DNA from: Alphaproteobacteria bacterium
GTDB taxonomy: Bacteria; Pseudomonadota; Alphaproteobacteria; Rs-D84
DNA length: 17,801 bases
Reading direction: 5' to 3'
Assembly (NCBI GenBank): GCA_017937735.1
Contig: JAGBCZ010000041.1
Location: 1-17,801 of the forward strand
Part shown: positions 1,561 through 17,801 of the stretch, one piece after another
Position numbering within the stretch: the first letter of the stretch is position 1
How the letters are laid out: every line of letters begins with the position of its first letter
Position numbers and translations under genes: made by a program
Notes under the pieces: model-generated
What the model saw: the letters and a program-made list of their open reading frames with translations, nothing else
Told to the model about the DNA's origin: nothing
Database searches by the model: none

Positions 1561-2084
1561 TTATGCAGGGCGATATTTATCCGCTCAGATAATTTCTTTG
1601 CGTGTTTCCTGACGGAAAGGTAGAACACGAACGAAATCGCCAAACAAGTAATCCCAACAACACTATTCCCAACTGTCAAGGCAAAAATCATCAAAACAAT
1701 TGATGCCATCAACACATTACGAGACAGTGCGTATTCACGACTCAATGTTTTTAAAAACACGTCTTCTTTTTCAGCAGAAACATATTCTTTATAATCATGC
1801 CATTGGATCTTGATTTTACGCGACAACCAAGTTCTGCGTTCTGGGGGCACGTCCGTCATTAGAATTTCTTCCAAGAATACGGATGCCATACGGTTCATAA
1901 CCAGTCCTACAAAATAAGCCAATGCAATAAAACACACTGTTTCCGTAGTTGGGCTATTTATTACCCCTTGTAGCAGTCGCCACTGTGCGCCAAAGAACAA
2001 GGGATCGATTAACACAAGCCCAATTAAAGAAACCAGACCAATAAACAACATGTTTATCAAATGATAAAAAGGTATCTTGTTCAT
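1557..2084 (-). CDS. Four-helix membrane protein, partner of the MBL-fold protein
   Basis: 175 aa from the ATG at 2084-2082; GGGGGTGG five bases upstream is a strong ribosome site, so I prefer this start to the GTG at 2096. Hydrophobic segments at about residues 8-28, 46-66, 122-140 and 142-160 suggest four transmembrane helices. They enclose a cytoplasmic-looking charged region (~75-118) that contains an R-R/K-rich stretch and WHDYKEYVSAEKEDVF. The C-terminal tail is basic. It starts 12 nt after the stop of the upstream MBL-fold gene, so the two are almost certainly co-transcribed and probably act together at the membrane. I recognise no named family. Confidence 0.85.
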   Translation of the reverse strand: MNKIPFYHLINMLFIGLVSLIGLVLIDPLFFGAQWRLLQGVINSPTTETVCFIALAYFVGLVMNRMASVFLEEILMTDVPPERRTWLSRKIKIQWHDYKEYVSAEKEDVFLKTLSREYALSRNVLMASIVLMIFALTVGNSVVGITCLAISFVFYLSVRKHAKKLSERINIALHK

Positions 2085-5405: not shown

Positions 5406-7463
5406 TCACCAAGCTAATTCATCTCTCTCTATTCTGTCTCGCCTTTCTGACAAAACTTCGCCGTTATATTTAAACATAGCTGGCCCCTGTACGGTATTCC
5501 AATTGATGCCACGCTTATGCAACAACTCTTTTGCTAATGTACTTAAACGATACTCTGCCCCCTTGTATGAAACGGTATTTTCAGAAATTACTGTACAAGT
5601 TTCAGACTCATCCTTTATAAAAACCAAAGTTGCCCCATTAGGAATATCTAACATGTCAAAATTAAATCGACTACGAGATACCCGTGACAACTTTCTAGCT
5701 TTACGTGCATCCCTTTGTGCCTGAGCATATTGTTGCTGAACTTCTGGCGGCAAAGGATTCTCAGACAAAGAAGACTCTTGATATGGATAATGTTTTATAA
5801 TCCTATCAATCATTTGTTGAGTTCGGTTTTCTATGTCTGCTTTTGTCCATTCATTATAAGACAACAGTTCTTCATTTAATTTAATATGTCTTGTTTGTTC
5901 TAGTATTTGTTTCTTTTTGTCCCATTCGTCATTGCCCATTTGGCTATTATTAAGACTGGTTGCCAAGGTTAAATTGCCAATCAAACCGACATACTGATCA
6001 TACTCATCCTCTGGAACATATTTCTTCCAATAATCCGTCGCAGTCTGTGGCAACAAATGCTCTACACTTAAATTTGATAAATCAACCTGGGCAGAATTAT
6101 CAACCAATTCAAGCTTATCCAGAACAGAACGTGTACATTTTAAGACATAAGCATCGTTATGAGATAAAAAGTCTCTTAAATCCTGATCCGTTGGCATCTT
6201 CATTGCCGTAAATCTTGTTTCGTTTATTAAGAAATACTTTACATTATCCACGATATTTTCATATTTATCGCCTGTTGCTAGAATGACATGCCTTAAAAAA
6301 CCTGGAAAAAACCTTGTAATTTCGCTTGTGTCTCTTGCAACAAGCGCACGTCTGGTCAAATAAATATCTACAAGATCAATAATGGCATCCAGTGTTCTTG
6401 GTGATATTTTTTGTTCATCATAAAACTTGTACATCTCCATTAAAAATGGTGCAGGCATAACAGATGGATTCCGTCTAAAGAAACGTAATGCTGGCAAGGA
6501 TTTTACTGCATCCTCTTCTTGATACAGTGCCCAATAATAGCCCATGTACCGATTTATCTTTTCAAAGATTTCCTGCTTGCTTACTTCTTCATCGTCGCAC
6601 CATAATTTAAAGGCGCTATAAACTTCTTTCTTTTTTGGCAGATCGTACGTTTGATTTGCTAAAAATAATCTGAAAAACTCTTCTAGTTCTTTAGAATCTT
6701 CAACCTTCGCTTCTAATGGCTTCCAATATTTTTCGTACAAACGTTCTTGTTCAACATCTTCTTCTCCCATCAGCAAATAATTGCGTATAAGATCTGCCGC
6801 AGTCAACGGAGCCCCTTTTGAATTAATACTTTCAAAGATTTGCTGCGGGTCATCTGTATTCAACAACGGGATTGTAACTATGTATAGCTTCTGTAACGCA
6901 TCTAAAACTGCCTCTAGACTATAATCATCTGACAACCATTTGCCTATTCTATTTTTTATAGCAATATAATTTTTATAAACATTGGTATTTTGTTCTTCCG
7001 AGGTTATAGCCTTTAAATTTCCATCAACAATTTTGACATACACATTGTCATCAGACACCAGCGGCTTTAATTTCAATTTCATGGATGCATCTTCTATGTA
7101 TTTATTTATCAAATACATATCATCCAATTTTTCTGGGAATGCAGAATCATCGTTGTCCTGTTGGGCAATGTGCTTTAATGCATACAAGGTCAAAAATATC
7201 GTCGTTAAACGCTGCTGACCATCAACCACCTGATATTCATGATGATTAAAAGCACGGGGTAAATCTAAATATATTACTATACCAAAGAAGTGCGCAGAAC
7301 TTTCTTTATACAAAAGCCGTTCTGTATCATCTAAAAACACTTCTACTTCTTCTTTTGCTTTCCATGTATAATTACGCTGATATACAGGAATAACAAACTG
7401 ACACCCCATACTTTTTTGAATAAAATCTAATATTGATGTTCTCATTGGTGCTGGTGCATACAT
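5406..7463 (-). CDS. DUF262-DUF1524 GmrSD-like type IV restriction nuclease with RAMA-like C-terminus
   Basis: 685 aa; GGAGG five bases before the ATG fixes the start. The N-terminal DUF262 (ParB/GmrS-like NTPase) domain shows IPVYQRNYTW (25-34), VVDGQQRLTTIFL (79-91) and FESINSKGAPLTAADLIRN (210-228). The DUF1524 HNH nuclease (GmrD-like) shows the catalytic VEHLLPQ (467-473) and IGNLTL (495-500). Residues ~598-680 (from RFNFDMLDIPNGATLVF to LSERRDRIE) resemble the RAMA domain found with restriction systems and thought to sense modified DNA. Proteins with this fused GmrS+GmrD layout cut DNA carrying modified, for example glucosylated, cytosines. Here the likely role is defence against modified phage DNA. 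The enzyme is complete and sits 73 bp after the recombinase fragment, on the same strand. Confidence 0.93.
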   Translation of the reverse strand: MYAPAPMRTSILDFIQKSMGCQFVIPVYQRNYTWKAKEEVEVFLDDTERLLYKESSAHFFGIVIYLDLPRAFNHHEYQVVDGQQRLTTIFLTLYALKHIAQQDNDDSAFPEKLDDMYLINKYIEDASMKLKLKPLVSDDNVYVKIVDGNLKAITSEEQNTNVYKNYIAIKNRIGKWLSDDYSLEAVLDALQKLYIVTIPLLNTDDPQQIFESINSKGAPLTAADLIRNYLLMGEEDVEQERLYEKYWKPLEAKVEDSKELEEFFRLFLANQTYDLPKKKEVYSAFKLWCDDEEVSKQEIFEKINRYMGYYWALYQEEDAVKSLPALRFFRRNPSVMPAPFLMEMYKFYDEQKISPRTLDAIIDLVDIYLTRRALVARDTSEITRFFPGFLRHVILATGDKYENIVDNVKYFLINETRFTAMKMPTDQDLRDFLSHNDAYVLKCTRSVLDKLELVDNSAQVDLSNLSVEHLLPQTATDYWKKYVPEDEYDQYVGLIGNLTLATSLNNSQMGNDEWDKKKQILEQTRHIKLNEELLSYNEWTKADIENRTQQMIDRIIKHYPYQESSLSENPLPPEVQQQYAQAQRDARKARKLSRVSRSRFNFDMLDIPNGATLVFIKDESETCTVISENTVSYKGAEYRLSTLAKELLHKRGINWNTVQGPAMFKYNGEVLSERRDRIERDELAW

Positions 7464-7536
7464 CTATACCTCCGTTACTTTTCTTACATAGATGTTACCA
7501 GAGTCTCACAAAAAAACAACAACAAACAATAAATTC

Positions 7537-8079
7537 CTACCCCAATAATCCCAGCATTGAATTGGTGGCGCGTTGCATTGATTCACGGACAGGGGCACAG
7601 GATAATCTGGCATAGATTTGGGTGGCGGCGGTGGAACGATGCCCCAGCAACTGGCCGATGATGTGCAGGCTGGATCCGGTGATGGCCTGGTAACTGCCCA
7701 TTGTGCGGCGCAGGTCATGAATACGCAGGTTTTCAATATTCGCACGTTTCAGCAGTGCATTCCACGCACGTTTAGGCTCTTCGATATGGCCACTTTTGCT
7801 GGTGCTGCTGGGGAACAGCCACGGATTATCCCCGGCCGTTCTGTACATTTGTATCAGGATTTCACGGACCTGGTCCGTCATGGGTGTGTTAACCGTATCG
7901 CCATTCTTGGTATCAACAAATCGCACAATATCGTTTTTAAAATCTATGTCGCCCCAGCGTAGTGCCAAGATATTACTGCGACGTTGCCCTAAATATAGCG
8001 ATACGGATATAAATATCGATATATATCGACACTCACTCCAAACTAATCTAACTGGAAAAATAGACACTAATATATCCAT
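7537..8079 (-). pseudogene. Tyrosine recombinase (integrase), C-terminal catalytic half only
   Basis: The 180-codon frame has recognisable phage-integrase sequence only from about residue 28 (near 7998) on. Catalytic residues are present: Arg33 in GQRRSNILALRW, His121 and Arg124 in HDLRRT, His147 in LGHRST, and Tyr156 in IYARL. The entire N-terminal DNA-binding domain (~200 aa in relatives) is missing. The first ~27 codons look like read-back into the neighbouring intergenic DNA. The fragment is clearly more GC-rich than the restriction-modification genes beside it. The break point falls next to the RM pair, so insertion or recombination of that module probably truncated it. No start with a ribosome site is visible and I see no tRNA or obvious att core nearby. 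Confidence 0.88.
8016..8029. promoter_or_regulatory. 14-bp perfect palindrome TCGATATATATCGA at the integrase/RM junction
   Basis: A perfect dyad within a GATAT-rich patch (7994-8029), between the integrase break and the methyltransferase promoter. It may be an operator for the RM unit or a scar of the insertion; no controller (C) protein is encoded nearby. Confidence 0.35.
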
Positions 8080-8118
8080 ACATATTGTTTACAATTTTTA
8101 ACATTAAATTTTAATATC

Positions 8119-8147
8119 TTGATTCTGATGATTGTTTGTGTCATATT
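8119..8147 (+). promoter_or_regulatory. Promoter of the restriction-modification operon
   Basis: -35 TTGATT (8119-8124), 17-bp spacer, -10-like CATATT (8142-8147). It gives a ~24-nt leader with TAAGGA before the ATG at 8178. Confidence 0.45.
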
Positions 8148-8177
8148 TTGACTATTGTTAGGTAAGGATTTATTTTT

Positions 8178-9431
8178 ATGGCCACAAAAAAACTTCGTGT
8201 TTTGTCGCTTTTTTCTGGTTGTGGAGGCATGGATTTAGGACTCGAAGGTGGTTTTGAAATACCTTCTTCTTGTTATAATAAAAAAATGCACCCAGACTGG
8301 CTTCCAACCAGTTCTAAAAAGGGATTTATTAAATTAAGGAAAACTTGTTTTGACACTGTTTTCGCTAATGACATCAGAAAGGATGCAAAATCTGCGTGGG
8401 TAAAATATTTTAAAAAGCATGATAAAAACATTTACCATATTACAAGTATTGTTGATTTGGTCAAGGCAGCCCAAAAAGGCGAATATACATTTCCTGAAAA
8501 TATTGATGTTGTGACTGGGGGCTTCCCGTGCCAAGATTTCTCTGTTGCTGGAAAAAGGAAAGGATTTTGTTCTGACAAATCGCATAATGGCGACAAATCT
8601 GTAACATGTATAAACATAAAAGAAAGTCGGGGTTCACTATATTTGTGGATGAAAGATGTAATATCAATTGTCCAACCCAAATTATTTATTGCTGAAAATG
8701 TAAAAGGTTTAACAAATCTTGCTGATGCAAAACAAATAATAGAACGAGATTTTAGTTCTACTTGCCATGATGGATACTTGGTTGTTAATGCCAAAGTATT
8801 GTACGCTCCTGATTATGGTATACCACAGTCTCGTGAACGCGTGATCTTTTTAGGATTTAAGAAATCTGCACTAAGATCAGAGGCTTTGGTGGAATTATCT
8901 AAATCAACGATAAGTAATTTGTATAATCCATACCCAATCAAAACACATAGTTGCACCCCAAATATAGATCAATTACCGATTGTTACAACAAGTCAGGTTT
9001 TATTTGATTTACCTGAACCTGAAGAATCCGAAGATCTAGATCAACAAGTTTTTTCAAAAGCAAAATATATGGGTAAACACTGCCAGGGACAAAATGAAAT
9101 TAAATGGGATCATGTTGCTCCAACTATTCGTTCTGAACATCATGGCAACATTGAATTTAGGCGTCTTAGCGAAGAACATGGTGGCACACACATAAACGAA
9201 TTAAGAAGTGGCAAAAAAGAACGTCGATTAACAATTAGAGAATGTGCGCGAATTCAAACATTTCCAGATGATTATCATTTTATTTCTAAAAAAGATAATG
9301 ACCTTCCTCCTGTTTCTGGTTCACAAGCCTATCAACTTATTGGCAATGCCGTTCCACCATATTTAGCATACAATTTAGCAAAACGGCTTGAAAAAAACTG
9401 GGACTTGTACTTCAAAGGAGACGATGAGTGA
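8178..9431 (+). CDS. DNA (cytosine-5-)-methyltransferase of a type II restriction-modification system
   Basis: 417 aa with the ordered C5-methyltransferase motifs. Motif I LSLFSGCGGMDLGLEGGF (9-26) binds AdoMet. Motif IV is GGFPCQDFS (114-122) with catalytic Cys118; motif VI AENV (172-175); motif VIII QSRERV (217-222). Motifs IX/X include RRLTIRECARIQTFPDDY and QAYQLIGNAVPPYLAYNLAK near the C-terminus. The target-recognition region lies between motifs VIII and IX (~230-340), so the site cannot be read from sequence. It methylates host DNA to protect it from the endonuclease encoded by the overlapping next gene. AT-rich composition contrasts with the adjoining integrase, consistent with transfer. 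Confidence 0.96.
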   Translation: MATKKLRVLSLFSGCGGMDLGLEGGFEIPSSCYNKKMHPDWLPTSSKKGFIKLRKTCFDTVFANDIRKDAKSAWVKYFKKHDKNIYHITSIVDLVKAAQKGEYTFPENIDVVTGGFPCQDFSVAGKRKGFCSDKSHNGDKSVTCINIKESRGSLYLWMKDVISIVQPKLFIAENVKGLTNLADAKQIIERDFSSTCHDGYLVVNAKVLYAPDYGIPQSRERVIFLGFKKSALRSEALVELSKSTISNLYNPYPIKTHSCTPNIDQLPIVTTSQVLFDLPEPEESEDLDQQVFSKAKYMGKHCQGQNEIKWDHVAPTIRSEHHGNIEFRRLSEEHGGTHINELRSGKKERRLTIRECARIQTFPDDYHFISKKDNDLPPVSGSQAYQLIGNAVPPYLAYNLAKRLEKNWDLYFKGDDE

Positions 9432-10511: not shown

Positions 10512-10546
10512 TGTGATGCAAAGTGAGGTTGCATGTGGTATAATTT
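10512..10546 (+). promoter_or_regulatory. Subtilase promoter with ATGCAA-N7-TTGCAT operator-like dyad
   Basis: Extended -10 TGGTATAAT (TATAAT 10539-10544) with no good -35. Directly upstream is the dyad ATGCAA (10516-10521) / TTGCAT (10529-10534). The 35-bp element recurs at 14818-14852 before the ASCH gene with 33 of 35 bases identical. A shortened relative lacking the dyad drives the first S41 gene. Confidence 0.7.
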
Positions 10547-10568
10547 ATGGGAAAGAAAGGATTTTGGT

Positions 10569-11894: not shown

Positions 11895-11898
11895 AAAA

Positions 11899-11922
11899 CT
11901 GTGATTCGGTGTGGTATAATTT
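11899..11922 (+). promoter_or_regulatory. Promoter of the S41 pair
   Basis: Extended -10 TGGTATAAT (TATAAT 11915-11920). Flanks AAAAAACTGTGAT and GTGTGGTATAATTTATGGG match those of the subtilase promoter, with the intervening ATGCAA dyad missing. AAGGGG six bases before the ATG at 11942 is the ribosome site. Confidence 0.6.
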
Positions 11923-11941
11923 ATGGGGCTAAGGGGTAATT

Positions 11942-13030
11942 ATGCAAACATTAGAAAACCTGGAACAGAAATTTTTATCTGCCGTACCAATAAAGCCTTT
12001 TGAATTAGGCGACATTCATGCATCAATAAATTCAGATAAAAAATTATCCCCAGAACAAGCAAGGCACGATATTGCAACGCTGGCACAGATGTTTATAAAT
12101 GCCTATGGCGGATGGCCATTTTATCCAAAATTATTGCGGTTGCGCATACTGAATAAACTGAACAGAATTTATGACAAAGTCACACACCCTATAACCACAT
12201 CTGAATTGTTTGCACAATTAAAACCAATAATTGAAATTATGCCAGATAATCATCTGTGGATTAAACTGGGCGATAATTTGGCAAAATATCCACGCAGTCC
12301 ACGTATTGATGTTGGGGTAAATCTGGCTGTAACGCATGGTGGCGGTAAAAAATATTATATCGACAAAATAGACAATATTGGTGTGATTGCTTTTTCAAAA
12401 TGCTTTGCACCAGACGACAAAGAAAACTTGGAACAGTTCCGCAATCGTATTCGTGATGTTATGGGTGGCACATGCGCAATAATCATAGATTTGCGCGACA
12501 ATGGTGGTGGCAGTCCGCTGATTATTTCTATGCTTGCAGACGAAATTATGGGGCCGGTTGGCATTCCGCGCACAAAATGTATGTGGTCGCGCACCACGCC
12601 CCAGGCACAAGAATTATATCAATATTCTACACTGTCGCGCGACCATATAGACAAAACAGTTGACCCAACAATTGTGGCGGATAACACCAAATTCAAATTG
12701 CCAACTGATTACAGCCCAGTATATGACCGTCCAATTTATATTTTACAAAATAACAAAACCGCATCATCGGCAGAACATTTGCAGGTGCAATTACGATATC
12801 ACCCGCAAATGCAAATTGTTGGTTCAAATTCATCGGGGTGTATGCAATATACCAACTATCAAACACTGAAATTAGGTCATTCTGGTATTCTGATTCAATT
12901 AGCCAGTGTATATGCCGAATTCTTTGGAATAAAACACTTTGAAACACATGGGTTTACACCCGATATAAAATGTCCAGATGGCACTGATGCATTTGCCGTT
13001 GCAATGGCCCAGATTGACATAAAAAAATAA
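11942..13030 (+). CDS. S41 family peptidase, first of two tandem paralogues
   Basis: 362 aa, no signal peptide and no visible PDZ domain. The N-terminal half carries the shared block LSPEQARHDIATLAQMF...GGWPF (35-60). The C-terminal half is the S41 catalytic core: IIIDLRDNGGG (180-190), NKTASSAEHL (271-280) with Ser275 aligned to the nucleophile, GSNSSG (295-299), and a C-terminal GFTPDIKCPDGTDAFAVAMA shared with its neighbour. S41 (tail-specific/tricorn-like) enzymes cleave unstructured C-terminal regions and are usually exported; the lack of a signal suggests an intracellular substrate. A 25-nt gap to the paralogue, with its own AAAGGAAAG, indicates one operon. Confidence 0.9.
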   Translation: MQTLENLEQKFLSAVPIKPFELGDIHASINSDKKLSPEQARHDIATLAQMFINAYGGWPFYPKLLRLRILNKLNRIYDKVTHPITTSELFAQLKPIIEIMPDNHLWIKLGDNLAKYPRSPRIDVGVNLAVTHGGGKKYYIDKIDNIGVIAFSKCFAPDDKENLEQFRNRIRDVMGGTCAIIIDLRDNGGGSPLIISMLADEIMGPVGIPRTKCMWSRTTPQAQELYQYSTLSRDHIDKTVDPTIVADNTKFKLPTDYSPVYDRPIYILQNNKTASSAEHLQVQLRYHPQMQIVGSNSSGCMQYTNYQTLKLGHSGILIQLASVYAEFFGIKHFETHGFTPDIKCPDGTDAFAVAMAQIDIKK

Positions 13031-13055
13031 AACGATCAGACACAAAGGAAAGACA

Positions 13056-14189
13056 ATGACCAAGATACCAACAGTCAGAGAAATGGAAGAATTATTACTG
13101 CGTGATTCCAAAACGGCAGATTTGATTGATGGTCGTAATGCCAAATCAAAATCGCCAGACACAAAACTGACTGCGGACCAAGTTCGACATGAAGTATCAG
13201 TCTTTGCGCGAGTGTTAATAAATATATATTGTGGTTGGCCTTTTCATAACGAGGTACTGAAACGCAAAATCTTGAAGACGTTGGTTGATATTCACAGAAA
13301 CACAAAAGATATGACATCGGCAGAACTGCTGGAACAACTGCGCCCTGCGATTGAGATTATACCCGACAATCATATAAATTTACGTATGCTTGGATACGAT
13401 ATGGGTGTCCGAACCACACTGCGCAAACCAAGACCAAATGTCGGGAAAAATATTGCAAGCGGTAAAAAATTCCATACCGAACAACGTAGCGACATTGGAA
13501 TTATAGCAGTACCAACACTATCTGGATGGACAGATGATGAACAGCAAATATTTGAGGAACAGTGGCGCACAATTCTGCCACGGTCAGAAATACTTATCAT
13601 CGACCTGCGCGGTAATGGTGGTGGCAATAGTAAACCTTTGTCCGACATGGCAGATTATATTTTAGGCGATGAAAACTTTCCATTTGCACGCAGACAATAT
13701 ATTCGCAACAACCCAGATGCCAATGCTGTCAAAAAACTATATAGGCAATCAATCGGCACCAAATTTAATATTAAATCAACGACAGATCCCATTATTTACG
13801 AAGACAACAGTAACGATGATATATTACCAAAGTTTGATGCAACACGTGCAGGTTTTAATGGACCAATTTATATACTGATAGACAGTGGTGTAATGTCATC
13901 AGGAGAACTGATATGCACCCTGTTACGCAACCATCCAAAGGCAAAGTTTATCGGAACAAACACACGTGGTGGCGAAGTGTATGGCTATAACTATGCATAC
14001 ATATTATTACCACATTCACATATACGGTTTAATGTCGGCTGTGTATATCGTGAATTATTTACAGAAAACTTTGAATTAAACGGATACGAACCCGACATCA
14101 AATGCCTTGATGGCACCGATGCATTTGCGGTTGTAATGGCCGAGATTGAAAAAGGCAGAACAATGCAAACTCCGATACTAGAAAGATAA
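13056..14189 (+). CDS. S41 family peptidase, second tandem paralogue
   Basis: 377 aa, same architecture as the preceding gene: LTADQVRHEVSVFARVL...CGWPF (38-63), IIPDNHINLRMLG (101-113), IIDLRGNGGG (181-190), SGVMSSGELI (277-286) with Ser281 in the nucleophile position, GTNTRGG (300-306), and C-terminal GYEPDIKCLDGTDAFAVVMA. It is collinear with the first copy throughout but diverged, so it is an old duplication with both copies kept; TAS-SAE is VMS-SGE here. There is no signal peptide or PDZ domain. The tail after GTDAFAV is longer (ends in TPILER). Paralogue retention suggests a heteromeric enzyme or two substrates. Confidence 0.9.
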   Translation: MTKIPTVREMEELLLRDSKTADLIDGRNAKSKSPDTKLTADQVRHEVSVFARVLINIYCGWPFHNEVLKRKILKTLVDIHRNTKDMTSAELLEQLRPAIEIIPDNHINLRMLGYDMGVRTTLRKPRPNVGKNIASGKKFHTEQRSDIGIIAVPTLSGWTDDEQQIFEEQWRTILPRSEILIIDLRGNGGGNSKPLSDMADYILGDENFPFARRQYIRNNPDANAVKKLYRQSIGTKFNIKSTTDPIIYEDNSNDDILPKFDATRAGFNGPIYILIDSGVMSSGELICTLLRNHPKAKFIGTNTRGGEVYGYNYAYILLPHSHIRFNVGCVYRELFTENFELNGYEPDIKCLDGTDAFAVVMAEIEKGRTMQTPILER

Positions 14190-14194
14190 AAAAT

Positions 14195-14215
14195 CCGCCC
14201 ATCTGGGCGGTGTTT
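14195..14215. terminator. Bidirectional terminator between S41 and GNAT genes
   Basis: CCGCCC (14195-14200) / GGGCGG (14205-14210), loop ATCT. Plus-strand tail TGTTTTA; minus-strand tail ATTTTTTATC. It serves the two convergent transcripts. Confidence 0.8.
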
Positions 14216-14751
14216 TATGCAACCGTTGCAAACATTTTCATATCACGTGGCTGCCCACGCAAGACGAAGTATTTACGCAAGACTCCTTCACACTCATAAC
14301 CGCAACGCAGGGCCACAGCAGCAGACGGGATATTTTTTGCATCAATTGTTAATTGAATACGTTTTAACCCCATGTCAGCAAAACCCATTTCGGTCAATTT
14401 ATTCAATGCACGTGTCATAATACCACGACCATTAAAACCGTGCGCCAACCAATAACTGATTTCGCCCATATTGTCGTCTGTATCAACAAAACTAATCTTG
14501 CCGGCAATTTCACCATCTAGCATAATAAAGTAAGCGCATTTATCATCGCCAAACGACTTTTCAATATTCGCCAGTGTTTTATCGGTTGTGGTATAGCCAT
14601 CTACCCATTCCAAGAATTCACCCAGGAATTCACGATTGGCATTTATAACCGCCAACAGGCGTTCTGCATTTTGTGCCGTTGGTTCCAATTTTACCAGCCA
14701 GAAATCACCCATATCAATAATGCGTGGAAATGTTTTTATCGGATTTGTCAT
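14215..14751 (-). CDS. GNAT family N-acetyltransferase, RimJ/RimL-like
   Basis: 178 aa. AAAGGAAA before the ATG supports the start. Typical RimJ/L features: EISYWLAHGFNGRGIMTRAL (97-116) with the Q/R-x-x-G-x-G/A acetyl-CoA loop (HGFNGRG, 104-110), then RIQLTIDAKNIPSAAVALRCGY (131-152) with the conserved Asn140 and Ser143. VLRKYFVLRGQPRDMKMFA at the C-terminus is also family-like. Such enzymes transfer acetyl groups to ribosomal-protein N-termini or to small amines; the substrate here is unknown. It is transcribed divergently from the ASCH gene and looks like an ordinary single gene. Confidence 0.93.
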   Translation of the reverse strand: MTNPIKTFPRIIDMGDFWLVKLEPTAQNAERLLAVINANREFLGEFLEWVDGYTTTDKTLANIEKSFGDDKCAYFIMLDGEIAGKISFVDTDDNMGEISYWLAHGFNGRGIMTRALNKLTEMGFADMGLKRIQLTIDAKNIPSAAVALRCGYECEGVLRKYFVLRGQPRDMKMFATVA

Positions 14752-14817: not shown

Positions 14818-14852
14818 TGTGATGCAAAGTGGGGTTGTATGTGGTATAATTT
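14818..14852 (+). promoter_or_regulatory. ASCH-gene promoter, near-copy of the subtilase promoter
   Basis: Dyad ATGCAA (14822-14827) / TTGTAT (14835-14840) followed by extended -10 TGGTATAAT (TATAAT 14845-14850). The predicted start (~14857) is essentially at the ATG at 14858, so the mRNA would be leaderless. Confidence 0.65.
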
Positions 14853-14857
14853 GCATT

Positions 14858-15112
14858 ATGAGTAACGTATTACATCTTGTTTTGAAACATTACTGGTTTG
14901 ATAAGATTGTGTCGGGGGAAAAGACGTCTGAATATCGGGTGTGTTCTGAATACTGGAACAAGCGGTTCGCCAACAACCAATATGACACGGTTATTTTTCA
15001 CAAAGGATATACAAACACAACTGCCACATATAAAATCAAATCGATTGGTGTTACATGCAAAAAAAATGATTTAAATCTGCCCCAGTGTTGGGAAATAAAA
15101 ATTGCACAATAA
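14858..15112 (+). CDS. ASCH-domain protein (84 aa)
   Basis: The ATG at 14858 is chosen because the promoter TATAAT ends at 14850; earlier in-frame codons would not be transcribed. The sequence VLHLVLKHYWFDKIVSGEKT (4-23), then SEYRV, YWNKRF and DTVIFHKGYTN, is typical of ASCH domains (lead strand, short helix with ..SGeKt.EyR, and a basic cleft). ASCH proteins are RNA-binding or modified-nucleoside-processing (ASC-1 homology) modules; small ones such as YqfB hydrolyse N4-acetylcytidine. This one is compact and single-domain. No ribosome site is present, in keeping with leaderless translation. Its promoter is shared with the subtilase, which suggests co-regulation. Confidence 0.88.
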   Translation: MSNVLHLVLKHYWFDKIVSGEKTSEYRVCSEYWNKRFANNQYDTVIFHKGYTNTTATYKIKSIGVTCKKNDLNLPQCWEIKIAQ

Positions 15113-15127
15113 TAATCGCGCACATAT

Positions 15128-15454
15128 TCAAGAAAAAGAATAATATCTGTCCATTTTTACCACTGTACTGATAAATGGGATGTTATCTTTGGATTCTTTG
15201 ATTTGGTTGATAAGGACACTGCTGCCGGTAAAGACAACACACACTTCGTCATCCAACAAGAATTGCATTTGCAAGCATTCTGTTCCATCACGCTTGGTTG
15301 ATTTACGCAATCTGAAATCGACCACTGTGATTTCACGATTTAAAATATCATCCAATCGTTTTTTATTACCAGGCATTGGCAGTTGATTTTTTGCAAACAT
15401 TGCGAATTTCGGACACGTGTCAGATTTCACTTTTTTGATTTCATCCAAGGTCAT
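15128..15454 (-). CDS. Small phage-type protein of unknown function
   Basis: 108 aa. Basic N-terminus MTLDEIKKVKSDTCPKFAMF, then NKKRLDDILNREITVVDFRL (30-49), CLQMQFLLDDEVCVVFTGSSVLINQIKE (residues ~61-88) and a closing FISTVVKMDRYYSFS. The alternation of short strands and the FTGSsVLi pattern resemble small all-beta (OB-like) proteins common in phages; I cannot name the family. It lies just downstream of the DGR template repeat but has its own promoter (15571-15599), and a terminator at 15614-15636 separates it from the TR, so a functional link is unproven. It converges with the ASCH gene, 15 bp apart. Confidence 0.85.
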   Translation of the reverse strand: MTLDEIKKVKSDTCPKFAMFAKNQLPMPGNKKRLDDILNREITVVDFRLRKSTKRDGTECLQMQFLLDDEVCVVFTGSSVLINQIKESKDNIPFISTVVKMDRYYSFS

Positions 15455-15564
15455 TTTTTATCCCCATTGTTATCGTCATAAATTGGGCATCCAGGACGTT
15501 CAGAGATAATACCCTTACCAGACCAGATGCCCCCTGCGTTTTGTGTTTGTCCTGTTATTTATAC
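15455..15564 (-). other. Structured ~110-nt leader of the small phage-type gene
   Basis: Between the predicted start (~15564) and the ATG at 15454, GGGCATC and GATGCCC (plus-strand 15485-15491 and 15526-15532) form a long-range 7-bp stem. The same stretch is open in one frame for ~35 codons (ending NAGGIWSGKGIISERPGCPIY and a TGA that overlaps the downstream ATG), but it has no ATG, GTG or TTG start. It could be a relic coding sequence or a regulatory leader. Confidence 0.35.
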
Positions 15565-15570
15565 GGACAG

Positions 15571-15599
15571 GATATATCGCCCCGCCTTTGATGTGACAA
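15571..15599 (-). promoter_or_regulatory. Promoter of the small phage-type gene
   Basis: Minus strand: -35 TTGTCA (15599-15594), 17-bp spacer, -10 TATATC (15576-15571). A TCCTGT/ACAGGA inverted repeat (15550-15572) overlaps the -10 and start point. Confidence 0.5.
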
Positions 15600-15604
15600 G
15601 GCAT

Positions 15605-15636
15605 ATAAATAAACAGATACTTTTTTCATGTATCTG
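15605..15636 (-). terminator. Terminator downstream of the DGR template repeat
   Basis: Minus strand: CAGATAC (15636-15630), nine-base loop, GTATCTG (15620-15614), followed by TTTATTTATA. It probably ends the transcript that carries the template repeat. Confidence 0.6.
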
Positions 15637-15900
15637 AAAAGTGTATTACCACTTTGTCCTGCAGGCTAGCCAAACTTTGTCTTTGCGTTCAAAGTTATTA
15701 CCTTGCAAAGGAGCGACCGACCCGAACAAGCCCGCGCGCAGCGCGACATTGCTACGGACGTTGTTACCGCAGTTGTTCGTACAATTCGAAGCGCAATTCG
15801 CAGCCGAGCTGTTGTCGTTGTTGAACGCCCAAAGCGAAGACACGGCAACGCCGCCACGCCCCACGAATCAGCTATCGCACAACCGATAACGGCGATACAC
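15637..15900 (-). ncRNA. Putative DGR template RNA region (boundaries approximate)
   Basis: The stretch around the template repeat has no supportable start codon. The frame matching the target protein is interrupted by a TGA just upstream (15868-15870) and runs past the usual stop into unrelated residues. No separate promoter is evident, and no minus-strand terminator with a U tract separates it from the target gene. The template RNA is therefore probably the 3' portion of the target operon transcript, ending at 15605-15636. A small TATCG/CGATA stem lies at 15873-15888. Confidence 0.5.
15713..15845 (-). repeat. DGR template repeat (TR), 133 bp
   Basis: It aligns gap-free with 16065-16197 (116 of 133 identical). 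Read on the coding (minus) strand, every one of the 17 differences is an adenine here: AAC>GAC (twice), AAC>TTC, AAT>CTT, AAT>GCT, ACG>CCG, AAC>TAC (twice), AAC>GCC, AAC>CGC, AGC>GGC and AAT>ACT. Of 24 adenines in this copy 17 differ; none of the other 109 bases does. Ten of the 12 affected codons are AAC/AAT, the hallmark of DGR templates. Homology ends sharply at both sides. In known systems this segment is transcribed, reverse-transcribed with adenine-specific errors and copied into the variable repeat. Confidence 0.95.
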
Positions 15901-15903
15901 CCT

Positions 15904-16050
15904 ATTCCCGATTTTGGTCGGGAATTTTTGCGCCCCCACAGGGGGCGAAACTTTTTTCTTACCACGTTGCCCGTTGGTCAACGTGGCGGTCCCATCGTGT
16001 TTCACACGATGGCGCATTGCGTGTCACGCATTTCGTGCCACGGCCCATGG
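15904..16050. repeat. Run of strong hairpins between VR and TR
   Basis: Inverted repeats, left to right: ATTCCCGA/TCGGGAAT (15904-15925, plus-strand T tail), CGCCCCC/GGGGGCG (15931-15947, then AAACTTTTTT on plus), CCACGTTG/CAACGTGG (15962-15986), CCATCGTG/CACGATGG (15992-16012, five-base loop), TGCG/CGCA (16018-16030) and an imperfect CCATGG-centred dyad (16042-16050). The ones nearest the VR lie just downstream of it in coding sense, where DGR targets need a hairpin/cruciform for efficient homing. The two leftmost could be plus-strand terminators. None follows the TR. Confidence 0.7.
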
Positions 16051-16057
16051 TCCAACA

Positions 16058-16492
16058 TCATTGCGCGACCGACCCGAACAAGCCCGCGCGCAGCGCGACA
16101 GTGCCACGGACGCGGGCACCGCAGTAGTACGGACAAGCCGAAGCGCAAAGCGCAGCCGAGCTGAAGTCGTCGTCGAACGCCCAAAGCGAAGACACGGGGT
16201 GACTAACCTTGCACCAGCAATACTGACCTTCACGTTCACCCCCACCGGCGGTTAATGTTGCATTTGTTGTGCCCTGGGATCCACCTTTAACAGATAAACA
16301 TGCTGCAACGCCGTACACCGTGCCATACGGGAACGTGACCGTCCATGTCATTGTGTTATCATCTTTGGTATATCCTGTGCCGACTATTGACGGGTCCAAG
16401 ATTACTGCAACTGTATCTTCTAATGCACACATCGTTGTGGCGTAAACCGGTAATGTTATCAGCATGCACAGGACACATAATATCTTCTTCAT
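16058..16492 (-). CDS. DGR target: secreted Cys-rich protein with C-terminal variable region
   Basis: 144 aa from the ATG at 16492 (AAGGAAGGAAAG upstream); earlier in-frame ATGs lie in the previous gene. Residues 1-18 (MKKILCVLCMLITLPVYA) form a Sec signal peptide; there is no lipobox. The mature part has a beta-rich segment (TWTVTFPYGTVYGVAACLSV, 49-68), a Gly/Thr linker, CWCK (92-95), then the variable module VSSLWAF...C-x3-C-x3-C...VR..VALRAGLFGSV (100-142), stopping two residues later. Residues 107, 108, 110, 115, 119, 121, 122, 123, 126, 127, 130 and 131 are diversified relative to the template; Cys116, 120 and 124 are constant. It is likely an exported, disulfide-stabilised binding domain. 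It is not obviously a C-type lectin (no clear GFR-type motif). It is second-to-last of a three-gene unit plus TR. Confidence 0.92.
   Translation of the reverse strand: MKKILCVLCMLITLPVYATTMCALEDTVAVILDPSIVGTGYTKDDNTMTWTVTFPYGTVYGVAACLSVKGGSQGTTNATLTAGGGEREGQYCWCKVSHPVSSLWAFDDDFSSAALCASACPYYCGARVRGTVALRAGLFGSVAQ
16065..16197 (-). repeat. DGR variable repeat (VR), 133 bp at the 3' end of the target gene
   Basis: It lies in frame over codons ~99-143 of the target, ending five bases before the stop codon. It matches the TR 352 bp away except at 17 template adenines, all in first or second codon positions. The 3' part (coding strand, 16065-16100) is identical to the TR and GC-rich (GCGCTGCGCGCGGGC), as expected for the initiation-of-mutagenic-homing site. 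Confidence 0.95.
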
Positions 16493-16547: not shown

Positions 16548-17039
16548 TTACCATATCGTGTCAAAGATGGTGCCACGGAATGCGGCATCACTTTTCATCG
16601 CATTCATACACGATGCGGTGCAACCAGAACTGCCACCACCGCATCCTGGGGTATCCGCACACGCATCCGCAGAATCATAACTTTTTAAATAAACCCAATA
16701 CGATACAACGCCTGTGGGATTGCCATCTGTATATGTGGTTACAGGCGCAATCTTGCACCAACAGTTTGTTCCGGTGGTCGCCCCAGACGTCACAACAGAG
16801 GTCGGGTCTGTCGTGCTGTCCAGGGCGTTACATGATGCAAAACCTGTTATGTCCCTGTAATCGTATGTGACACGCCATGTTTTGTCAGTGTCTGTGTTGC
16901 TGCATTCTGAACTGGTGCCGTTGGTGTCTTTGCGAAACACGCTGATATACGTGTTCGTTTTTACGCACATCTGTACTGCATACACAGGCGCAATTACAAA
17001 TATCATCAAAATGCCAAATATCGTTGCTACTTTCTTCAT
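16548..17039 (-). CDS. Secreted Cys-rich protein, paralogue of the DGR target
   Basis: 163 aa. The signal peptide MKKVATIFGILMIFVIAPVYA (cleavage after VYA) is followed by VQMC. It has the same plan as the DGR target: beta-rich WRVTYDYRDITGFASC, a Thr/Gly linker, NCWCK (near 102), then YWVYLKSYDSADACAD and a Cys/Gly-rich C-terminus ending FRGTIFDTIW. The C-terminal module aligns in layout (W-x-Y, SA-x-CA, spaced Cys, ALRAGLF~AAFRGTIF) but its DNA does not match the TR, so it is not a VR of this template. AAGGGGGG precedes the ATG. It lies 55 bp upstream of the target gene and 15 bp downstream of the next gene, so the three form an operon. Confidence 0.9.
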   Translation of the reverse strand: MKKVATIFGILMIFVIAPVYAVQMCVKTNTYISVFRKDTNGTSSECSNTDTDKTWRVTYDYRDITGFASCNALDSTTDPTSVVTSGATTGTNCWCKIAPVTTYTDGNPTGVVSYWVYLKSYDSADACADTPGCGGGSSGCTASCMNAMKSDAAFRGTIFDTIW

Positions 17040-17054
17040 TATCGTTCCCCCCTT

Positions 17055-17801
17055 TTAATTCACTGCGTGATAGATTTTATTGTTGTATTTAATGTTTATG
17101 GCATCAGTTTGTGTGCCAGAAATTAAATTTATATAACAGGTTGTGTCGCCAGACTTAATATTCAATGACGGGGTAACAGATTTTGTCGCATACAGCGGAT
17201 ACGACAGCCCCGTATTCGTGCGCAGGGTCTTGTGTTCACCGGCACACAATGCAGAACAGGTTCCAACATCGGTGTATTCCAAACCGTCTTCACATAAAAT
17301 ACCGCAAATCATCGGTGAATCTGGCATTTCTGATTTACACTGGGCCGTTGTATATTTATATCCACCAGAACATGCGCCAGATGTGTTTAATTTAAAAAAG
17401 CTGTCATCGTTAACCGCCAAATCTAGATACCCGTCTGGACAGTCACCTTGGGTGTGTGTAATGGTCCCCAATGCGATTTGCTGACCTGAATCAAAGCCGT
17501 TTGTCATAACCATGCCGTCTGGCATAGCACGCATAACATATCCATCTTCGCACCGGCCCAATGATGGTGCCATAACAACCGTGTTATAATAAATTCCATG
17601 CTGACCCGATGGACAATCAGAACTGGCGTGCGGATTACATGTCGTGCCAGACCAATAACCTGTGCATAATGGTGTATCTTTGCCTGTGGAATAACCATTG
17701 GCCGGCATAATATCATCTGGGATGTCTTGCAATCGCCAGCCCGCATCACAGCCACCTGCCATCGGCGCAACAATCGTATCACCCACAGAATGAATTATCG
17801 C
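17055..17801 (-). CDS. Cys-rich repeat surface/secreted protein, C-terminal part (runs off window)
   Basis: The frame is open to the right edge (at least 248 codons; the GTG at 17786 is unlikely to be the true start) and ends at TAA 17057-17055. It contains two related ~66-residue units of the form VVAP..G.C..G......PD..M..NG...G, at about 17585-17780 and 17390-17585. After these come DCPDGYLDLAVNDDSFFKLN, ACSGGYKYTTAQC, ICGILCEDGLEYTDVGTCSA, and a final beta-rich, Cys-poorer tail ending IKYNNKIYHAVN. The many Cys and Gly-Tyr turns suggest an extracellular disulfide-rich stalk or adhesin. It is the first visible gene of the operon with the DGR target, so it may display or anchor the small Cys-rich proteins. 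The N-terminus and anchoring signal are not visible. Confidence 0.85.
   Translation of the reverse strand, partial: AIIHSVGDTIVAPMAGGCDAGWRLQDIPDDIMPANGYSTGKDTPLCTGYWSGTTCNPHASSDCPSGQHGIYYNTVVMAPSLGRCEDGYVMRAMPDGMVMTNGFDSGQQIALGTITHTQGDCPDGYLDLAVNDDSFFKLNTSGACSGGYKYTTAQCKSEMPDSPMICGILCEDGLEYTDVGTCSALCAGEHKTLRTNTGLSYPLYATKSVTPSLNIKSGDTTCYINLISGTQTDAINIKYNNKIYHAVN

Follow-up and report, generated by a model that had tools for sequence, protein, structure and literature searches.

How could a diversity-generating retroelement (DGR) keep rewriting its target with no reverse transcriptase (RT) beside it? The question is raised by the window, the whole 17,801-nt stretch of DNA analysed here, in which a template repeat (TR), a variable repeat (VR), an accessory gene and a target gene stand together (Table 1) and no RT-like ORF appears in the ORF list for the 17.8 kb. 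We favour an RT supplied in trans over a recent loss or a chimeric contig, and give somewhat better than even chances to a DGR cassette that lacks the RT at its usual place and is likely served by one encoded elsewhere in the genome.

Table 1. Features of the DGR cassette and its surroundings in the window.
Feature	Position	Strand	Basis or remark
Break point: usual RT start in most related cassettes; a convergent unrelated gene ends here	15113..15127	.	Relatives
Accessory gene, 108 codons, predicted OB fold, intact	15128..15454	minus	Homologues, structure model
258-nt spacer following TR; conserved RNA with structure, predicted to belong to the template RNA	15455..15712	minus	Alignment, folding
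TR (template repeat)	15713..15845	minus	133-nt alignment; 24 adenines
Hairpin CCATCGTGT-GAA-ACACGATGG, 9-bp stem	15992..16012	minus	53 nt after VR
Target gene of the DGR: 144 codons, start resembling a signal peptide, variable domain at the C-terminus	16058..16492	minus	ORF, homologues; no Pfam
VR (variable repeat)	16065..16197	minus	Target codons 99-143, both end codons partial
Target paralogue upstream of target, ending FRGTIFDTIW	16548..17039	minus	Relatives share gene order
Cys-rich surface-like protein, leaves the window unfinished	17055..17801	minus	Relatives share gene order

The repeat pair and its target

The TR and VR aligned over 133 nt without a gap and differed at 17 positions, exactly as the sequence-only reading had described. 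When mismatches on the coding (minus) strand were tabulated by template base, every one of the 17 fell on a TR adenine and none of the 109 non-adenine template positions was altered. The changes (A>G, six; A>C, six; A>T, five) lay at codon position 1 in 11 cases and position 2 in the other six. Twelve codons were altered, and ten of these read AAC or AAT. The earlier reading had likewise given changes to G, T and C, codon positions 1 and 2, the 12 codons and a VR at the 3′ end of its gene. The copies had also been placed 352 bp apart, which is right as a start-to-start distance and wrong as a gap, the intervening DNA being 219 nt long. Similarity ends sharply on both sides, and the pair is the longest among the direct repeats listed for the window. 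Overlap with the TR was seen for four mechanical ORFs (72-153 codons), and the one that was scanned had no Pfam match. The probability that 17 random positions would all land on the 24 adenines of the TR is 2.8e-16. This restriction, together with 16 related cassettes that have the same pattern, argues against ordinary gene duplication or some other hypermutation as the source of both copies, and we regard an origin without a retroelement as extremely improbable. At the level of sequence, the earlier reading of the pair as DGR adenine mutagenesis is supported by the repeats themselves and by the adenine-only pattern shared with relatives; what that reading had overlooked was the lack of a recognisable RT in the 17.8 kb. 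The lack of any non-adenine difference points to recent copying.

A scan for TR/VR pairs at 25 loci recovered a pair at 19. We counted 17 of these, dropping one whose VR is cut by the contig end (L139) and one whose VR lies on the other strand (L151). Over the 17 cassettes, window included, 213 of 224 mismatches were at TR adenines, a count that omits non-adenine mismatches lying 4 nt or less from a repeat end. The scan tolerates one non-adenine mismatch per 60-nt scanning interval, so the bias of the relatives is partly selected for and that of the window is not. Fifteen of the 16 related cassettes have an RT on the same stretch, and in G021 it is in two pieces.

The target gene encodes a predicted secreted protein, and its host is likely a gut Alphaproteobacterium. 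A protein search gave 54 homologues at E<=0.01, and a genome scan gave 16 loci. The assemblies concerned are without exception titled uncultured proteobacterium or Alphaproteobacteria, and sheep or buffalo gut samples are named in several of the titles. We compared the window protein with two of its three nearest homologues, the third (P0003) being left out as its length differs. P0001 differed at five positions in residues 1-98 and at eight in the VR, and P0002 at three and 12, respectively. All 20 VR differences fell at codons holding a TR adenine, in a comparison that used difference positions only with codons taken from the TR/VR alignment, and this points to recent diversification. Across residues 96-144 of the family alignment, TR-adenine codons make up 10 of the 11 most variable, the exception being the last residue, 144; W104, C120, C124 and R135 are invariant. 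No trusted Pfam, PHROG or NCBIfam match placed the target in a known family (NF007646, at 0.06, was taken as chance), two viral-contig scans yielded no relative that would suggest a viral origin, and the window contains no tRNA and no Rfam family at gathering score. The target domain also occurs inside very long frames of 4110 (G083:C2), 4048 (G057:C11) and 1168 codons (G043:C3), with three matches within the long frame of G083 among the rows listed.

The structure model of the target is confident except for the first 30 residues and the final few, and it predicts that the VR, which contains Cys 116, 120 and 124, forms one strand and two helices. Searches with Foldseek and VIA returned no C-type lectin match and no good solved-structure match for this model, which does not in itself demonstrate a new fold. 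The likeness to mtd, TvpA and LdtA proposed earlier should be read with caution, those three being C-type-lectin proteins. According to PMC8144416, annotated VR regions are systematically C-type lectin folds, and the modelled target may be an exception to this rule. Helical periodicity gave P = 0.07 for the positions of TR-adenine codons alone and P = 0.014 at 100 degrees for homologue variability (best angle 94), which is suggestive of variable residues lying on one helix face. If true, this placement of the VR on a helix would depart from the usual pattern, in which DGR variation is borne by a C-type lectin scaffold.

The cassette in relatives: order, RNA and accessory gene

We surveyed 183 genomes of one family, scoring up to 21 target candidates per genome. 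The 108-codon gene was found in 50 genomes (E<=1e-8), the RT in 56 (E<=1e-20) and the target family in 130 (E<=1e-8). L001, L003, L004 and L006 share one same-strand arrangement, which runs Cys-rich surface-like gene, target paralogue, VR-bearing target, TR, 108-codon gene and RT; in L004 target and TR are fused, and no TR/VR pair was detected there. Among 52 loci of the 108-codon gene (from 53 rows, the second piece of the G099 gene being dropped), the RT follows immediately, in the same orientation and within 600 nt, at 44 and lies nearby in the opposite orientation at four. The remaining four have no RT on the contig: G110, G040, G168 (near the contig start) and G159 (a fragment). The RT profile of the relatives matches PHROG 1423 and has 8ub7 as its best solved relative (328 aa, E 1.7e-57; next 5e-25), which we take to be the BPP-1 enzyme, bRT. 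Cassette parts are reshuffled in three cases: the spacer RNA motif described below follows the RT in G015:C8 and G101:C2, and in G043:C3 it sits beside the RT with the 108-codon gene inverted. Six genomes of 0.7-1.0 Mb (G003, G072, G086, G033, G015 and G110) have 12-20 target-family matches each among the 21 or fewer candidates scored; five of them have one RT match and G110 has none.

The spacer was alignable across 19 cassettes (19 of the 25 loci, leaving out L134, L135, L142, L144, L149 and L152). Its consensus has 32 pairs, 16 of which show compensatory change, a number that none of 500 shuffles reached and that compares with at most six for slid pairings; the consensus structure was derived from the same alignment that was used for this covariation test. 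Cells with both sides changed numbered 47, against 13.9 in shuffles (0/500 as high), and of the five measures one, the number of further pair types, did not exceed the shuffles (33 vs 31.5; 127/500 as high). The window keeps 29 of the 32 consensus pairs, and the strand folds with z = -3.94.

A 26-nt motif within the spacer (15652-15677) occurs once in the window. It had 31 sites in 30 of the 183 genomes, and the reversed control was never found. One of these matches, in G008, has three mismatches in a genome without an RT or accessory match and may be due to chance; in G013 the motif and the RT are on different contigs, and at three mismatches the motif was absent from G040 and G110. We considered satellite TR cassettes in RT-bearing relatives, and this candidate was rejected: the motif search gave a single site in 29 of the 30 genomes, only G042 having two, so that RT-less copies accompanying a complete cassette are not usual.

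The hairpin downstream of the VR recurs in relatives. A hairpin lies within 150 nt after the VR in 13 of 17 cassettes, against 0.42 expected from shuffles, and that of L001 is identical to the window's in its GAA loop and in its distance from the VR. None was found after the VR in G040.

The 108-codon gene is a conserved DGR accessory, and homologues come immediately after the RT in the DGRs of two viruses of archaea. The known accessory Avd is a helical bundle. The model of the 108-codon protein is unlike Avd and not all-helical, and it resembles an OB fold. Sequence searches returned no solved relative and no trusted Pfam, PHROG or NCBIfam match; PHROG 19665 (E 0.01) was taken as chance, and TAFII28, matched by seven of 21 homologues with a best value of 0.0029, was set aside on the same ground. 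The gene presents a new, testable DGR component, common to gut Alphaproteobacteria and viruses of archaea.

The missing RT

The locus behaves as a DGR would and, judged on its sequence, carries all the DGR features that we tested for apart from an adjacent RT; it is an RT-less DGR cassette of a little-described variant with a predicted OB-fold accessory, and not a complete DGR. Past the stop of the 108-codon gene (15128), only ATATG, which resembles an RT start, remains before unrelated sequence. An 84-codon gene on the plus strand, convergent with the cassette and related to phrog_625 (unknown function), ends at 15112; beyond it lie genes for a GNAT protein and an S41 peptidase, followed by an S41-related gene. 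A tblastn search with five related RTs gave nothing near 15127 and no RT remnant after the accessory gene; its best score in the window was at 1817..1563 (E 0.001 in a database of three sequences), in a frame that resembles an unrelated membrane protein. As the usual RT site holds no RT, the enzyme is likely elsewhere in the genome or was recently lost.

The left part of the window has features of its own. The S41 peptidase gene and its repeat-sharing relative stand in tandem at 11942-14189, a pair that is 86-88% identical in G031, G123 and G049. A promoter-like block ending TGTGGTATAATTT occurs at 10512-10551, 11896-11927 and 14818-14857, at or before the starts of three different plus-strand genes, and is also present in G047 and G031. 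Positions 5406-9431 are genomic-island-like: here a phage-type integrase frame of 180 codons sits with a restriction gene of the GmrSD type and a C5 cytosine methylase.

The two sides of the break point differ in their affinities. The left part (~11941-14740) is 84-88% identical to a clade of G031, G123, G049 and G047, and the DGR part is nearest to G003 (76%) and G002 (80-86%). This mismatch would fit either a cassette acquired by another lineage or a chimeric contig, in which the true neighbour of the 108-codon gene would be an RT and the left 15.1 kb would come from another organism. A rise in G+C from ~0.38 to 0.55 at the TR/VR is also in keeping with a chimera, but the TR/VR is G+C-rich from its own sequence, and the junction falls in a 15-nt gap separating two complete genes, outside all listed repeats. 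We consider an assembly chimera unlikely.

A second alternative is that the DGR was orphaned recently, the RT having been deleted or replaced at the end of the 108-codon gene so that the VR is now frozen. The short ATATG stretch agrees with this, as do the Treponema denticola strains with leftover targets described in PMC4891356. So does G110, which keeps the 108-codon gene, with a TR apparently shortened in translation, and has no RT match at E<=1e-20; it shows that outright loss of the RT is possible. Against it, the TR, the spacer RNA, the accessory gene and the target of the window are all intact and the repeats have no non-adenine difference, so that any loss would have to be very recent. 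We find orphaning possible and on balance improbable, with a better claim than the chimera.

Supply of the RT in trans, the reading that we favour, draws support from a split arrangement in G040 and from VRs on other contigs in G002 and G086. In G040, VR, TR and the 108-codon gene are on C11 and an intact RT frame stands alone on C19. This looks like a natural split example, and the two contigs could also result from a binning error; its TR lies 437 nt from the 108-codon gene, which counts against it as a precedent, as do its lack of the spacer motif and of a hairpin after the VR. We checked for one TR serving many VRs with 34 stretches from four genomes, picked among the matches listed, four being the TR itself; 21 of the 30 non-TR stretches were too diverged to judge. 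A VR of G002, on a contig other than that of its TR, has 15 of 16 differences at TR adenines, and three VRs of G086 on other contigs have 11/12, 9/11 and 10/14 (91-nt TR). These four stretches look like trans targets. A mixed picture came from one stretch in G003 (13/23 at A) and from four in G072 (13-15 of 19-25). A single TR serving several VRs, and targets lying at a distance, are known from PMC6642488 and PMC4891356.

If an RT does act in trans, TR and spacer would be transcribed and the enzyme from another locus would copy the TR, erring at adenines. The modelled OB-fold protein, a predicted nucleic-acid binder, may assist the RT, perhaps by binding cDNA. The cDNA would then take the place of the VR, the target being marked by the hairpin downstream of it, and up to 14 C-terminal codons of the predicted secreted protein could be rewritten, altering binding. 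We tentatively extend this to a split DGR, and think the full set of propositions doubtful: a movable, polymerase-less cassette of VR, TR, RNA and accessory gene, a resident RT acting in trans, an SSB-like OB-fold protein standing in for Avd, one alpha-helix face rewritten rather than a C-type-lectin surface, and an OB-fold accessory common to bacterial and archaeal-virus DGRs.

Comparison with known DGRs

The mtd/avd/TR/brt system of the Bordetella phage BPP-1 likewise has TR/VR adenine mutagenesis with a VR at the target's 3′ end, and the RT in 8ub7, which we take to be its enzyme, is the closest solved one to those of the window's relatives. It has Avd, whereas the window has a predicted OB-fold accessory located after the TR; the window also differs in having no RT in cis and a target without a lectin-fold match. 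The window shares with BPP-1 a spacer RNA after the TR and a stem-loop after the VR, as given for the phage in PMC12875486.

The DGR of Treponema denticola has its accessory between TR and RT and has remote targets, according to PMC4891356; the accessory of the window's variant has the same place. Its accessory is HRDC, whereas that of the window is a predicted OB fold, and the leftovers described there for T. denticola strains that lost their DGR are targets without a TR, whereas the window keeps TR, RNA and accessory without an RT. The cellular DGRs of Roux et al. 2021 (PMC8144416) are cell-encoded with a predicted exported target, as here. That survey set a limit of 1 kb on the distance between an RT gene and a repeat, so the window locus would escape it. 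DGR surveys look for RT genes beside repeats, and a cassette that keeps template RNA, accessory and target but no RT goes unseen; such searches would therefore undercount DGRs that act in trans or have been orphaned.

The DGRs of ANMV-1 and Caudoviricetes vir525, both viruses of archaea, have a homologue of the 108-codon gene directly after the RT (38.9% and 32.8% identity, respectively), and 21 of 25 and 18 of 22 TR/VR mismatches at TR adenines. The RT of vir525 belongs to PHROG 1423, as do those of the window's relatives. For other archaeal DGRs, trinucleotide GRA hairpin loops are described in PMC4372165. The two viral systems differ from the window in that their targets are among tail genes, the accessory follows rather than precedes the RT, and the RT is present.
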